Of a stretch of DNA of 64,000 nucleotides, positions 82 through 59,018 are shown in pieces. The stretch covers positions 1 through 64,000 of the forward strand of contig JAFPBO010000033.1 in assembly GCA_017390475.1 (NCBI GenBank). The letters run 5' to 3'. Each line of letters opens with the position of its first letter. Position 1 is the stretch's first letter. Source of the stretch: Loktanella sp. Its GTDB lineage: Bacteria; Pseudomonadota; Alphaproteobacteria; Rhodobacterales; Rhodobacteraceae. The notes under the pieces are model-generated. The model had not been told where the DNA came from. It did no database searches and worked only from the letters and a program-made list of their open reading frames with translations. The position numbers were made by a program, and so were the translations under genes.

Positions 82-192
82 ATACATCCTTTCAAACGCT
101 TAAGCTACCCTCGCCAACCCCTCATGAATAATTCGGGTTAACTCCTATGTGGTTTGTGGGACCGGCAGCTTTGCAGCAAAGGACACAGGCCG

Positions 193-2118
193 ATGGCTCT
201 GATCACACCACCGATGACCACCACCGCTTTTGCGGAACCGGACCAGACCGCGCCGGTCGATCTGGCGCAGATGATCCGCGTCGTCTGGGTCGGCAAATGG
301 ATCATTGCCATGACGACTTTGCTGGCGGTGCTGGCGGCGGGCTATTACGGCTTTGCCATGGCCAGCCCGCGCTATGCCGCCAGCAGCGTGATTGATATCG
401 CGCCGGCGCTGCCCGACAGCGCCGATGACACCGCCAACCCCGGCACTGCAATCGAGGTGCTGTTGGCAACGGCGACCTTGCAGCAGGTGATCGACCGGCT
501 GGATTTGCAGGATGATCCGGCTTTCAACCGCTATCTGACCCCGATGCCCCGGCTGTCGTTGACCGGGCTGCGGACCCGGGCGCGCAACCTGCTGCAAGGG
601 CAGCCCGAACCGGTCCCCGATACGGCGGCGATTGCGGCCAAGCTGGTGCAGAACCTGCGCGCCAGCCTGAATGTCACGCATCCGCGCGACAGCAGCCTGT
701 TGCGGATCACCGCGACATCGGGTGATCCGCAACAAGCGATCAGCATCGCCAATACGCTGGCTGCGGTCTATCTGGCCGATCAACAGGCGCGCAAAGACAG
801 CGCCAAAGCCAGGGCAGAAACCTGGCTGACGGAACGGTCGGAGGATCTGCGCCAGGAACATGGCGCGATCACGGCGGCGATGGCAGCGCTGACCTCCAGC
901 GCCGGGTTGCAGGACCCCGCCAGCCATGACCAGCTGGCGCGCCAGTTGCGCGAGACCGAGGCGCTGCTGGCCACCACAGAGGCCGCCCTTGCCCGCAGCA
1001 GTGACCCCGCCAACCGCAACCGGCTGACCGGCCAGAGCACGGCGCTGGCCGCCAGCCGCAGCAATCTGGATGCGCAATTGCAGGCGCTTGGCGCTGCGCG
1101 CGACAGATTGGACGATCTGCAATTTGCGCTTGATACCAACCGTGCCGAACAGGCGGCGCATCAGGCCCAGTTGCAGGGCCTGGCGGCACATGCCGGGCAA
1201 TCCGGGGCGCGGGCGCGGGTACTGAATGCCGCGACACAGGCGCAATATCTGGGGCCACAGAAAATCCTGCTGTTGCAGATCGCGGCGCTGGTGGGGGCGC
1301 TGGCCGGGTTGATGCTGGTCGCGCTGCGCCACAGCCTGCGGCACGGCCTGACCGATGCGCAGGCATTGCAGCAACTGACCGGCCTGCCGGTGCTGGCGCA
1401 ACTGCCCTTGTTGCCGTCGCGCAGGCCAGGGCGGTTGCTGGCAACGCTGGATCGCAGCGCCGCCCATGTCGTCAGCGAAAGCTACCGGCATCTGCGCACC
1501 GCGCTGTTGCTGCAAGGGGTCGCAGCACCGCAGGTGATCCTGTCCACCTCTGCCATCCCCGGTGAAGGCAAGACCACGCAGGCGATCGGGCTGGCGCATA
1601 GTCTGGCCGCCATCGGCAAACGCGTCCTGCTGGTCGATGCCGATCTGCGGCGGGGATCGTTCGGGCGCTATTTCCACCTGACCGGCACCGATGGTCTGGC
1701 CGCTGTGCTGCTTGGCCATATCGCCTTGCCCGCCGCGACAGAGCCCAGCCCCATTCCCGGCGTCGATCTGCTGGCAGGCAGCGCCAGGGACAGCAATGCG
1801 GCCGAACTGATGTTCCTGCCAGCGCTGCATGACGTGCTGGTGCAGGCCCGCGGCCTTTATGATTGCATCGTCATCGACACACCGCCCGTGCTGCCGGTGC
1901 CCGATACGCTGGCCCTGGCCGGACATGCCGATGCGGTGGTTTTCGCCGTGCACTGGGACAGGACCCCCGCTGCGGTGGTGCTGGCCGCCACGCAAAGGCT
2001 GGCGGCAGCGCAGGTGCAGATCAACGGGCTGACGCTGACGCAGGTCCATGGCCGCAAGCAGGCGCAGCGCGGCGGGATCAGTTTCATGCGATATGGGCGT
2101 GGTTATTTTCATAGCTGA
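193..2118 (+). CDS. Polysaccharide co-polymerase / tyrosine autokinase (Wzz-BY-kinase fusion)
   Basis: A 641-aa inner-membrane protein of exopolysaccharide or capsule assembly. An N-terminal Wzz-like chain-length domain lies between two membrane segments (about residues 36-56 and 358-378), with a long periplasmic coiled-coil-prone part between. The cytoplasmic C-terminus is a BY-kinase: Walker A IPGEGKTT (about 455-462), Walker A' LLVDADLRRG (about 478-487) and Walker B CIVIDTPP (about 557-564). The tail ends RYGRGYFHS, so the usual tyrosine cluster is reduced to two tyrosines. The ATG at 193 is preferred over the upstream GTG at 154 because AAGGA lies 9 nt before it. The gene is convergent with the spike-like pair, with a 5-nt gap. 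In this family, autophosphorylation controls polymer length and export. Confidence 0.85.
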   Translation: MALITPPMTTTAFAEPDQTAPVDLAQMIRVVWVGKWIIAMTTLLAVLAAGYYGFAMASPRYAASSVIDIAPALPDSADDTANPGTAIEVLLATATLQQVIDRLDLQDDPAFNRYLTPMPRLSLTGLRTRARNLLQGQPEPVPDTAAIAAKLVQNLRASLNVTHPRDSSLLRITATSGDPQQAISIANTLAAVYLADQQARKDSAKARAETWLTERSEDLRQEHGAITAAMAALTSSAGLQDPASHDQLARQLRETEALLATTEAALARSSDPANRNRLTGQSTALAASRSNLDAQLQALGAARDRLDDLQFALDTNRAEQAAHQAQLQGLAAHAGQSGARARVLNAATQAQYLGPQKILLLQIAALVGALAGLMLVALRHSLRHGLTDAQALQQLTGLPVLAQLPLLPSRRPGRLLATLDRSAAHVVSESYRHLRTALLLQGVAAPQVILSTSAIPGEGKTTQAIGLAHSLAAIGKRVLLVDADLRRGSFGRYFHLTGTDGLAAVLLGHIALPAATEPSPIPGVDLLAGSARDSNAAELMFLPALHDVLVQARGLYDCIVIDTPPVLPVPDTLALAGHADAVVFAVHWDRTPAAVVLAATQRLAAAQVQINGLTLTQVHGRKQAQRGGISFMRYGRGYFHS

Positions 2119-2123
2119 TCCGC

Positions 2124-3725
2124 CTACGTCACGGCCAGCAGATGCGTGCTGGCAAAGCCGATCACATCGCCCGGTTGCAGCGCGCCCGCCGCAGGCAATT
2201 GCGCCGCGACATAGGCTTTGGCGGTCCAGTCCGCCGTACCTGCGGCATCGCGCGCCGCGATATTGGGGCGCAGAAAGCTGCTGGTCCCGGCAATCACATT
2301 GCCTGCCAGCGGCGCGACCGTCACCGCGCAACCATAGCGCAGATCGCCGGTCAGCCCGGACCCGGACAGGCCCAGCCGTGTTGCGCTGCCAAGGCTGATA
2401 TCGGGCGGCAGCTGCCCGGCATGATCGGCCAGCCTGACCCGCCCCCCCCTCGGCGCGATCAGATCGTCAAAGGCCAGCGCCGCGGTTTCCCCATCCCAAT
2501 GCACCAGCGGCAGCATGCCGATATAGAGCCAGTCGCAGCCTGAAACGGCTGCGGTCACCCGCAGATCGACGTCGTGCTGCACCCGGCCCGGCGTGATCCG
2601 GCGCTGCAACCGGCAATCGGCGATATCGCCGCCGCCGGGGGGCTGCCAGACCGTATTTTCCACCATCGCAATCGTCGCACCCACGCGCAGGCCGGTGCCG
2701 CCGGTCGCGGGCAGAAAAGGCGCGTCATCCAGCGTGATCTCGCGCGATAGCAACGTTTCATTGCCATGGGTCTGGCCGCCGATTTCGGTCACCGCCCCAT
2801 CCACCACAAGCCGGGCGGCATATTCCCGTTCAGAGGGGTAATCCACCGCCTGAAACTGCGGATAGGTCGGGCGGTGATCGGCGCGCCAGTCCAGCGCGCC
2901 ATCGCCTGCGACACCGGTCAGATGCGTCGGGGCCTGACTGCCGCTGACACCGCTGGCCCGCGCGGCATAGAATGTGCCCTGCCATTGCACCTCGTCGCCC
3001 ATCACATAGGCGGTGGCCGGTTGCCAGACCGGCGGCAGGATCGCGTCATCGCGCAGATCGGCGCTGAGCCCCACCGCCTCGATCATCAGGGTGCTGCCGC
3101 CGGGCGTCGCGGCCCCGCCATGCGACAGGGTAACGACATGCGCACCGGTCAGACCTGTCGCGACCCTGATGCTGCGGCGGCGTTGCATATCGGTGGCGCT
3201 GTAGGTGGCAAAGGCCTTGAACCCCAGTTCCCCAGGATCATCGATGGCATTGACCAATGTCTGGCTGCCGTCGATATCGACACGGCAATAGGCACCGCTG
3301 CTGCGCGCGGTGAAATAGACCCAGAGGTCATAGGGTCTGCTGCGATCCACCCTGACGCGGGCCACCGCCCCGGCAGAGGATGAACTGACCGCGCGGTTGC
3401 CGGTATAGCTGGCCGCCAGCCCCGACCCCGAGGTCTGCAATTGCGCCCAGCCGGATGACAGGGCGAAATCTGCCACCGGATAGATCTTGCGCAGCACACA
3501 GGTCAGCGTTTCGCGCCAGGACAGGCGGGTTGCGGCATTGCCGCCGTCAAAGCGCAGACAGGCGGCGGTGGACGGCCCGGTTTCGGTCCAGATGTTCAGG
3601 CCATTCTGCGGGTCGGTCGCAAGGGCAACATGCGCCCCCGTTCCCGGCGCAAAGAAAGCGGCCAGCGGGTCGCGGGCGACGACGGGGTGGGCCAGATGGG
3701 CGGGTGAAAGCTCTAATCCGATCAT
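2124..3725 (-). CDS. Large spike/fibre-like protein paired with an RcGTA-type spike base (ghsB-like candidate)
   Basis: A 533-aa protein with no signal peptide or membrane segment, rich in beta-strand-like, Gly/Ser/Thr-rich sequence. Around residues 231-255 it carries a motif, WQPATAY..GD.V...G..Y.A, like the aromatic chitin/cellulose-binding module (CBM5/12 type). It starts 3 nt after the stop of the small spike-base-like gene and has no clear ribosome-binding site, so translational coupling is likely. In Rhodobacter capsulatus the gene-transfer-agent head spikes are encoded by two adjacent genes away from the main GTA cluster: a small base (ghsA, rcc01079) and a larger fibre (ghsB, rcc01080) that act in binding capsule. 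The order and sizes here match that pair. The assignment of this larger protein rests mainly on its partner and context. Confidence 0.55.
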   Translation of the reverse strand: MIGLELSPAHLAHPVVARDPLAAFFAPGTGAHVALATDPQNGLNIWTETGPSTAACLRFDGGNAATRLSWRETLTCVLRKIYPVADFALSSGWAQLQTSGSGLAASYTGNRAVSSSSAGAVARVRVDRSRPYDLWVYFTARSSGAYCRVDIDGSQTLVNAIDDPGELGFKAFATYSATDMQRRRSIRVATGLTGAHVVTLSHGGAATPGGSTLMIEAVGLSADLRDDAILPPVWQPATAYVMGDEVQWQGTFYAARASGVSGSQAPTHLTGVAGDGALDWRADHRPTYPQFQAVDYPSEREYAARLVVDGAVTEIGGQTHGNETLLSREITLDDAPFLPATGGTGLRVGATIAMVENTVWQPPGGGDIADCRLQRRITPGRVQHDVDLRVTAAVSGCDWLYIGMLPLVHWDGETAALAFDDLIAPRGGRVRLADHAGQLPPDISLGSATRLGLSGSGLTGDLRYGCAVTVAPLAGNVIAGTSSFLRPNIAARDAAGTADWTAKAYVAAQLPAAGALQPGDVIGFASTHLLAVT

Positions 3726-3728
3726 GGC

Positions 3729-3986
3729 TTAATACCACGCGACAAGCTGGGCGGTGGTACCGCTGGCCAGTACCCGGACCGGCCGGATCGACAGGATCGC
3801 ACCAGCGGTCAGATCATAGCTGACCACCTGCCCGCCTTTATCCTGCAACACCGCCACACCGGCGGTCTGCACAAAGACCGCACGCGGCCTGACCGGCAGA
3901 TCGGCGCTGTCGGATGGGGTGATGACATAATGCGCCACGGCGGGCGATGTCAGATTGACGTAATCGGAACTGAATGGATCAGGCAT
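3729..3986 (-). CDS. Spike base protein, RCAP_rcc01079 (GhsA) family
   Basis: An 85-aa protein with the family pattern as I remember it: MPDPF at the N-terminus, ITPSDSADLPV..RA.FV in the middle, and a C-terminal IRPVRVLASGTTAQ followed by a short aromatic end. In R. capsulatus this family forms the base of the head spike of the gene transfer agent RcGTA. The start at 3986 is chosen because AAAGGAG sits 8 nt upstream; an upstream in-frame start at 4031 would overlap the divergent region. The gene is the first of a two-gene unit with the fibre-like gene. No capsid, portal or tail genes are in the window, which fits the separate location of the spike genes in R. capsulatus. A phage-derived remnant is the alternative. 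Confidence 0.72.
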   Translation of the reverse strand: MPDPFSSDYVNLTSPAVAHYVITPSDSADLPVRPRAVFVQTAGVAVLQDKGGQVVSYDLTAGAILSIRPVRVLASGTTAQLVAWY

Positions 3987-4112
3987 CGGAAACTCCTTTT
4001 GTTTGCGCGGACCAATGTGCCAGCCAGACATGAGGATATGGTTGCGCGACCGTGCGGTGCCCCACGCAACACCGCTCTGGCCAAGACCGGGCGGGCTGCG
4101 CTAGACAGCGCC

Positions 4113-4847
4113 ATGCCTGATCCTGCCCTGCCATCCGCCGCCCCGACTGACCATTTTGCCGGTGCCGTGCCTGCGCCTGATACCGCTTTTGTTGCCATCG
4201 GCGATGTGCATGGCAGGCTGGATCTGCTGATGCCGCTGCTGGACCGGGTGCAGCAAATGGGCCTGCCTGCGGTGCTGCTGGGCGATTACATCGACCATGG
4301 CCCCGACAGCGCGGGCGTGCTGCGCCTGCTGCAGGAAAGCGCGGCACGGATGACGCTGATCTGCCTGCGCGGCAATCACGAAGACCTGCTGATCCGGTTC
4401 CTGCATCGGCCCCGGCGGACCGGCAAGACCTGGCTGCGCTTTGGCGGGCGGGCCACGCTGGACAGTTTCGGGCTGGAGCCGCTGCCCGACACCCCCGGCC
4501 CGGATGATTATATCCGCGCCCGTGACGGTTTGCTGGCCGCCATGGGCGACAGTGTGACATGGATGAATACCCTGCCCTATTGGTGGCAAAGCGGCAATGT
4601 CGCCGCCATGCATGCCGGGGCGGACCCGCATCTGCCGTTGCCCGACCAATTGGCCAAGGCGATGGTCTGGGGCCATCCCGATTTTGGTCAGGTGCCACGC
4701 GCCGACGGGATCTGGTGCGTCCATGGGCACCGGATCGTGCGCCGCCTGACGTTGCGCGCTGGGGTGATCTCGGTCGATACCGGGGCCTGGAAAACCAGCC
4801 AGCTTTGCGGCGCGCTGATCGGTGACGGCGCGGTGCGTGCGGTTTGA
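4113..4847 (+). CDS. Serine/threonine-type metallophosphoesterase
   Basis: A 244-aa cytoplasmic phosphatase with the three PPP/lambda-phosphatase motifs: GDVHGR (residues 30-35), GDYIDHGPDS (about 57-66) and RGNHE (about 86-90). A later VHGHRIV supplies the usual metal-binding histidines. The motif set predicts a di-metal phosphomonoesterase; the substrate is unknown. The start at 4113 leaves a short variable N-terminus before the first motif. An alternative ATG at 4038 is in frame but would run into the promoter region of the divergent spike-base gene. The gene lies between the spike pair and a periplasmic protein, and no functional link is evident. Confidence 0.8.
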   Translation: MPDPALPSAAPTDHFAGAVPAPDTAFVAIGDVHGRLDLLMPLLDRVQQMGLPAVLLGDYIDHGPDSAGVLRLLQESAARMTLICLRGNHEDLLIRFLHRPRRTGKTWLRFGGRATLDSFGLEPLPDTPGPDDYIRARDGLLAAMGDSVTWMNTLPYWWQSGNVAAMHAGADPHLPLPDQLAKAMVWGHPDFGQVPRADGIWCVHGHRIVRRLTLRAGVISVDTGAWKTSQLCGALIGDGAVRAV

Positions 4848-37161: not shown

Positions 37162-37238
37162 GGCGCGGTAGCTCAGTTGGTTAGAGCGATCGACTCATAA
37201 TCGATAGGTCGGGAGTTCAAGTCTCCCCCACGCCACCA
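37162..37238 (+). tRNA. tRNA with CAU anticodon (elongator tRNA-Met or tRNA-Ile2)
   Basis: A 77-nt cloverleaf: acceptor GGCGCGG/CCACGCC, D-arm GCTC...GAGC, anticodon stem ATCGA/TCGAT with loop CTCATAA, T-arm GGGAG/CTCCC with loop TTCAAGT, and encoded ACCA. The acceptor stem has one C-A mismatch at position 5-68. It is not an initiator, because the initiator's G-C run in the anticodon stem is absent. A CAU anticodon alone cannot separate elongator methionine from the lysidine-modified isoleucine tRNA; the ATCGA/TCGAT stem resembles Ile2 of E. coli. Confidence 0.93.
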
Positions 37239-58916: not shown

Positions 58917-59018
58917 GGGTGAGAGGTTGGCGCGGGCGAGTGCCTCGCCAACCTGGTCAGGTCCGGAAGGAAGCAGCCATAACGAGCCCCACTTGGGTCG
59001 TTGTCCAACCTCTCACCC
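58917..59018 (+). ncRNA. ffs: Signal recognition particle RNA (4.5S type)
   Basis: The ends GGGTGAGAGGTTGG and CCAACCTCTCACCC are perfect complements that close a long hairpin. The apical domain contains the universal SRP motif GGTCAGGTCCGGAAGGAAGC followed by AGCC (58955-58978), with the symmetric and asymmetric loops that bind Ffh. About 102 nt is the usual size for alphaproteobacteria. It targets ribosomes making membrane proteins. In related genomes ffs lies close to dnaX; here rsgA and two other genes separate them. Confidence 0.95.

Follow-up and report, generated by a model that had tools for sequence, protein, structure and literature searches.

We find that two adjacent genes in a 64,000-nt stretch of DNA from Loktanella sp. 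(contig JAFPBO010000033.1, positions 1 to 64,000; hereinafter the window) most probably constitute a head-spike operon of a gene transfer agent (GTA) of the type known from Rhodobacter capsulatus (RcGTA), a reading to which we assign a probability of about 85%. The spike would be made together with the GTA particle and its tailspike, and its fibre would bind the surface polysaccharide of sister cells. The evidence comprises the homology of the spike base, the order of the two genes, an RcGTA-type gene cluster in the same genome, a promoter box common to spike and cluster, and a conserved linkage of spike loci to polysaccharide genes. The features discussed are:

3729-3986, minus strand: head-spike base protein of the GhsA/Rcc01079 family, 85 aa (NF048002, PHROG 12296, PDB 6tb9)
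2124-3725, minus strand: presumed head-spike fibre, 533 aa, resembling GhsB in position and architecture (adjacency to the base, predicted fold, conservation in the genus)
3702-3725, minus strand: fibre codons 1-8 (MIGLELSP), putative anchor plugging into the base pentamer (motif enriched in downstream genes)
2955-3026, minus strand: CBM5/12-like stretch, fibre residues 234-257 (Pfam PF02839, E 9.3e-4, under the curated cut-off)
4051-4070, minus strand: promoter box GTTGCG-N8-CGYACG, exact match, 64 nt upstream of the base ATG
4018-4073, minus strand: extent of the match to promoter profile R1 (31.5 bits, E 5.3e-7; one of its 27 training sequences)
154-2118, plus strand: Wzc-like polysaccharide co-polymerase / tyrosine autokinase, 654 aa (Wzz PF02706, AAA_31 PF13614; convergent with the fibre)

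As judged from its sequence, the 85-aa protein is a GTA head-spike base. It matches the NCBIfam model NF048002 ('spike base protein, RCAP_Rcc01079 family') with 91.8 bits across profile positions 1-85 of 85 (cut-off 28), the solved Rcc01079 chain in PDB 6tb9 with an E-value of 8.5e-25 (residues 3-84) and PHROG 12296 with 7.6e-20, and it is the single match to the base family in the whole genome. An alternative 100-aa frame from 4031 is also listed; the NF048002 model begins at the ATG at 3986, which is preceded by AAAGGAG. The fibre gene lies directly downstream, its start separated from the base stop by 3 nt, and its own stop at 2124 faces the stop of the Wzc-like gene at 2118 with 5 nt between the two convergent genes. 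The initial annotation of this DNA had proposed the spike pair, its convergence on a Wzz/BY-kinase gene and the rcc01079-family membership of the small protein; both open reading frames (ORFs) and their minus-strand orientation are confirmed, the convergent gene contains both expected domains, and the profile search bears out the family. Window position 1 is also the start of the contig, placing the region past the Wzc-like gene outside the available sequence.

The same annotation had looked to a main GTA cluster elsewhere in the genome and a promoter element before position 3986, and both were found. An RcGTA-type gene cluster is present on another contig (C42), in the order megatron, hub, distal tail, tape measure, tail tube, connector, capsid, protease, presumed portal and large terminase, with matches to NF048004 (1818 bits), TIGR02218, TIGR02217 and NF058675. 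The portal is placed by position only, and the small genes between these GTA genes are without a match or lie outside the family searches. Of 295 family genomes, 102 carry the base, and a megatron match (E <= 0.001) is present in 268; the latter is found in 99/102 base carriers vs 169/193 non-carriers (Fisher p 0.006, kinship ignored). From these co-occurrence counts, most GTA carriers of the family lack this spike, while spike carriers rarely lack a megatron match. Within the genus, 45 of 56 genomes have the base, and 54 have some megatron match, 45 of them above the cut-off. The spike seems to decay in some genus relatives: the fibre is shortened or in pieces at three loci (L258, L274, L284), one genome (L290) has a stop inside the base gene, and 11/56 genomes give no base match. 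A 1084-aa protein with a Phage-tail_3 domain and a weak megatron-model match is encoded on contig C21 (L439:1856-5110, minus strand; C21 ~159.9-163.1 kb) and perhaps belongs to a prophage.

The spike has a promoter box in common with this cluster. The genome contains three exact copies: one 64 nt ahead of the base ATG, another 83 nt ahead of the ATG of the presumed portal, where the box sits between terminase and portal, and a third inside a 357-aa ORF. All 12 fixed letters are present in the base promoters of 12/45 genus loci, and at least 10 in 29/45. Of 108 exact matches in the 56 genus genomes, 12 lie 71-75 nt before a base match (0.002 expected) and 20 lie 8.21-8.33 kb before the megatron (0.007 expected), the other 76 being elsewhere. 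We built a longer profile (R1, 66 positions) from 27 spike promoters with a good box; its matches at spikes are therefore partly by construction, with the portal and tailspike sites outside the training set. A scan of the genome, in which 150 of 1751 first-look candidates were scored, gave E-values of 5.3e-7 at the spike (training), 2.7e-6 at the portal and 2.6e-5 at a presumed tailspike gene, the next best being 0.116. In the genus, 40 of 62 profile matches are at the spike and 13 at the portal, with 9 elsewhere, one of which is the tailspike site. Outside it, 41 of 70 named loci were scanned and gave 6 matches at E <= 1, three of them at <= 0.01 and most of them weak; five of the six fall within 120 bp upstream of the base.

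The third profile site of the genome (C21:132793-132847; L438:7795-7848, minus strand) has a box that ends 90 nt before the start of a 762-aa ORF. Its protein gives a pectate-lyase-like match, and a single 134-aa ORF separates it from a gene for class I lysine-tRNA ligase. This neighbourhood fits the tspA-lysS arrangement reported for Rhodobacterales GTAs in a preprint (PMC13420450); the tspA-like gene is probably the tspA of this GTA. The same preprint describes GafA binding 50-100 bp before tspA in R. capsulatus. GafA is also reported to bind the GTA promoter of that species (PMC6363796), and putative CtrA half-sites are described there in the promoters of the head-spike, tail-fibre and lysis genes, with putative GafA sites at two of the three (PMC9638019). 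GafA would accordingly be our candidate reader of the shared box. Because the same box stands at the spike, at the presumed portal operon and at the tailspike gene, all three parts (spike, particle and tailspike) would be produced at the same time. In the GTA cluster the box lies between the large terminase and the presumed portal rather than before the terminase (L035:557-807; C42 ~400556-400806), so the terminase may be under a separate promoter in this genus.

Spike loci in the family are linked to polysaccharide genes, and this linkage is conserved. The 654-aa Wzc-like protein of the window matches PF02706 and PF13614 above their cut-offs and the solved Wzc 7nhr at 1e-30. A homologue lies downstream of the pair on the opposite strand in 40/44 genus relatives (coverage >=60%), whereas the phosphoesterase on the other flank is kept in 12/44. 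Median identities to the window proteins in the genus are 37% for the Wzc-like protein, 75% for the base and 54% for the fibre. Some relatives have an extra gene between the fibre and the Wzc-like gene, which in one case (L085) is a YjbH exopolysaccharide gene. Past the Wzc-like gene, ten proteins from three relatives comprise 3 glycosyltransferases, 2 hexapeptide transferases and 5 proteins without a match. In relatives, the pair sits at the edge of a polysaccharide locus.

For the family, the base search gave 114 places including the window's own, of which 97 loci were taken in and 16 left out, three of these scoring above 90 bits; the survey is mostly one genome per genus, and a few genomes gave two loci. 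Neighbour genes were taken from codon-usage gene calls, the long-ORF calls having been discarded for placing false genes over the fibre. Among the first genes past the fibre (90 loci) and the first upstream (94), sugar epimerases, glycosyltransferases, cupin/mannose-phosphate isomerase types and sugar transferases lead, and Wzz and flippases also occur among the flanking-gene Pfam matches. By comparison, ABC transporters lead the Pfam matches of 109 control genes (110 drawn from 318, one dropped) among the best 25 of 163 families, beyond which a single-member polysaccharide family could lie. Ten polysaccharide-type clusters account for 111/627 neighbour genes vs 0/315 control genes, and 55/95 spike loci vs 0/20 control regions contain a member. 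As these clusters were chosen after inspecting their population and labelling representatives, the p value of 9e-22 for the linkage is optimistic. They include hexapeptide-transferase and exosortase clusters, and the first (representative in L107) gives weak ParA/CbiA matches and contains the Wzc-like protein of the window; the largest cluster of all (14 neighbour and 10 control genes) and smaller ones were left out of the count. Neighbour loci span ~10 kb and control regions 20 kb, the latter placed by coordinate on the same contigs. A coupling of spike and polysaccharide genes, which the initial annotation had guessed from two loci, has in this way been extended to a controlled survey. In R. 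capsulatus, the capsule genes rcc01081-01086 adjoin the spike genes and a tagged spike fibre is reported to bind capsulated cells (PMC10218006).

The 533-aa protein is most likely the fibre of the 85-aa base, because it is adjacent, begins with an alternating-hydrophobic N-terminus and has a CBM35-like predicted fold. A fibre homologue adjoins the base in 41/44 genus relatives, three of which have it broken or shortened; the fibre of Yoonia vestfoldensis SKA53 has 69% identity to that of the window. Near full-length relatives were found in 3/394 family genomes including the window's own, plus two weak matches; a search of plasmids gave no match. Conservation among 12 aligned fibres is 0.72 over residues 1-80, 0.78-0.84 over 81-320 and 0.59-0.71 over 321-533; such variability towards the C-terminus would be consistent with an end that faces the receptor. 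All 12 aligned relatives have in common a weak PHROG match of unknown function. In the PDB, the best single-sequence match has an E-value of 0.16 and the best profile match is a putative tail fibre, 9rkv, at E 0.0039 over residues 225-295.

The fold prediction, built from the 12 sequences (predicted TM-score 0.78), suggests that the fibre contains a CBM35-like sandwich, with target TM-scores of 0.66-0.72 against CBM35 domains at ~4-5 Å (E 7e-4 to 4e-3). In that comparison, the matches of lowest E-value are large glycosidases that superpose poorly. A tail fibre of Pseudoalteromonas phage J2-1 resembles the model with a Foldseek E-value of 2.7e-26, a TM-score of 0.64 (query) and a root-mean-square deviation of 8.7; by sequence, the phage protein matches residues 133-441 with 26.6% identity. 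The CBM_5_12 stretch had been considered as the chief evidence of sugar binding and was dropped, its E-value of 9.3e-4 being under the curated cut-off; the fold comparison was added. The fibre-like placement seen in the initial annotation stands, together with N-terminus and predicted fold; a sequence match to an RcGTA chain in the PDB was not obtained. The carbohydrate-binding-like motif is weak by sequence, and the predicted fold adds the CBM35-like sandwich. The annotation's further suggestion, that the fibre defines the surface polymer recognised by this lineage, may hold.

The putative anchor has a precedent: fibre residues 2-10 of RcGTA are reported to form a star whose (iso)leucines fill pockets of five base subunits (PMC7296036). 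The window fibre has I2, L4 and L6 in an alternating pattern, followed by S-P, and the hydrophobic register is not kept at positions 8 and 10; in the fibre alignment (A6), residues 1-3, 6 and 7 are identical in all rows that have them. We defined the anchor as at least three alternating I/L/V/M/F within the first 12 residues, and a coupled downstream gene as one that starts within -20 to +12 nt of the base stop. The survey took in 98 loci (96 family loci, the window and the R. capsulatus locus L181), 38 of which have no coupled downstream ORF and were set aside. The motif occurs in 32/60 coupled genes, vs a mean of 3.8 and a maximum of 10 in 2000 composition shuffles, and in 32/788 other ORFs (raw controls); by this rule, nearly half of the coupled genes are without it. 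With repeated N-termini removed, the counts are 21/47 for named genomes outside the genus (shuffle mean 2.8) and 15/41 for viral contigs (shuffle mean 2.4); within the genus, where the genes are closely related, 43/44 have it. Since the coupled genes range from <200 to >1300 residues, a short common plug joined to unrelated fibre bodies is the simplest reading.

An N-terminal motif search of the 38 loci set aside gave matches in 14, mostly without clear meaning. Four loci without a coupled downstream gene have related long genes adjoining the base on the opposite strand (L082:5453-7654 minus, L098:2440-4926 plus, L102:5317-7569 minus and L123:5473-6603 minus; that of L098 is Laminin_G-like), which may be the fibre in swapped orientation.

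Several observations weigh against the assignment to a GTA spike, and each bears on one of its parts. At the promoter, the reversed control pattern is commoner than the box (188 vs 108 exact matches in the 56 genomes), a looser form of the box gives 11 matches vs 10 for the reversed control in the genome, and the profile has no match in the R. capsulatus spike locus L181. These observations, together with a box known from alignment alone and with 76 of the 108 20-mer matches at neither spike nor portal, would fit a box that belongs to a general promoter or a stress-sigma element and is not an operator of the GTA activator. We consider this rather unlikely: because the reversed pattern is so frequent, it is the placement of the box and not its number that counts, each of the three good sites that the longer profile finds in the genome precedes a GTA or GTA-like gene, and the tspA-like box overlaps the far edge of the 50-100 bp interval reported for GafA in R. 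capsulatus (PMC13420450). A generic sigma-70 scan of 1900-4300 returned two sites, both on the plus strand.

At the level of linkage, the ten polysaccharide clusters contain no gene from 42/97 family loci. Spike and polysaccharide genes might be neighbours simply as residents of variable genomic islands of strain-specific genes, with no functional coupling. The great variation of flanks between genomes fits such islands, as does the lower conservation of the Wzc-like proteins relative to base and fibre, and the control regions, set by coordinate and not in islands, leave the comparison blind to an island effect. Against this stand the enrichment of neighbours for polysaccharide functions in particular, the retention of the convergent Wzc-like gene where the phosphoesterase is mostly lost, and the carbohydrate-binding-like folds predicted for the fibre, so that co-residence without coupling appears doubtful.

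As for the proteins, the RcGTA anchor has five alternating hydrophobic positions, of which the window fibre keeps three, and Glu12, a cation ligand in RcGTA, is Thr13 here; 9/37 aligned family members have E in this column. No RcGTA chain of the PDB was among the phmmer or profile matches of the fibre, the presence of a full Rcc01080 chain in that set being unchecked; as fibres vary across the family, homology to Rcc01080 is not a defining criterion. The fibre model has a mean predicted local distance difference test (pLDDT) score of 75.4, with residues 1-17 below 50 and five models spanning 51.9-75.4. Finally, true phages carry members of the base family too (13 records, some duplicates), and base relatives are found at 179 IMG/VR loci; the base alone is therefore no proof of a GTA. 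That the pair instead came from an ordinary prophage, as a remnant or as cargo with the tail or head fibre genes of an RcapNL-like phage, and is no part of the GTA, is nonetheless very improbable: those viral-contig relatives, the 50% identity to RcapNL and the further phage-tail gene on the same contig (C21, near 160 kb) speak for it, whereas against it stand the near neighbours (in a family search confined to these, Pfam matches identify a Wzc-like gene and a phosphoesterase), the fibre homologues beside the base throughout most of the genus, the promoter box in common with the GTA cluster, and a fibre for which exact peptide patterns gave nothing in viral contigs and no phage match covered 80% of its length.

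A GTA head-spike operon thus remains the preferred reading, and a mechanism can be sketched for it. The GTA activator would switch on spike, particle and tailspike together; pentamers of the 85-aa base would cap the capsid vertices; the fibre would dock into the base by its first residues (I2, L4, L6); and its carbohydrate-binding body would tether the particle to sister-cell polysaccharide, presumably the polymer made by the neighbouring locus. More tentatively, and with slightly less than even confidence, we propose that the head spikes of Rhodobacterales GTAs are an exchangeable receptor module matched to, and travelling with, the polysaccharide locus whose product it would bind, under one operator and in one regulon. 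A constant base and a short hydrophobic plug would accept unrelated fibre bodies, and one operator box would join spike, capsid-tail operon and tailspike.

If this is true, the particle would be aimed at the producer's own kind by way of its own sugar coat, which bears on how GTAs reach kin rather than strangers. With the spike gene inside the locus of its presumed receptor polymer, self-recognition would be heritable as one DNA block, and strains that differ in the block are predicted to differ also in both coat and aim. In the genus, the box would offer a way into the GTA regulon by sequence, and the base-plus-anchor rule a means of recognising fibres without sequence likeness to the known one. 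GTA head spikes and their link to the capsule are already known in R. capsulatus. In a literature search that covered few subscription papers, neither a family-wide linkage nor a general anchor rule nor the box was described, which is not proof of absence. Elsewhere in the window lie a tRNA gene (37162-37235) and a bacterial small signal recognition particle RNA (58920-59018).

Compared with known systems, the pair is closest to GhsA/GhsB (Rcc01079/Rcc01080) of RcGTA, with which it has in common the family and size of the base, the base-fibre gene order, in part the alternating-hydrophobic fibre start, and a location outside the core GTA cluster and next to genes for polysaccharides. It differs in fibre length (533 aa vs 325 aa for GhsB), in having three anchor hydrophobics instead of five and Thr in place of Glu12, and in adjoining a convergent Wzc-like gene where the RcGTA spike has rcc01081-01086 as neighbours. 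Earlier work reported that rcc01079 matches RcapNL and that rcc01080 matches RcapMu (PMC8601537), and the 'tail fiber protein' of Rhodobacter phage RcapNL is the best base homologue among phages; it resides in a phage genome, in contrast to the window base, which has its promoter box in common with a GTA cluster. The J2-1 tail fibre (759 aa in the structure library) is a phage protein that resembles the window fibre in fold. The tailspike TspA (Rcc02623) is a separate part of RcGTA, and it is by neighbourhood rather than by sequence that the 762-aa gene of this genome is likened to it.
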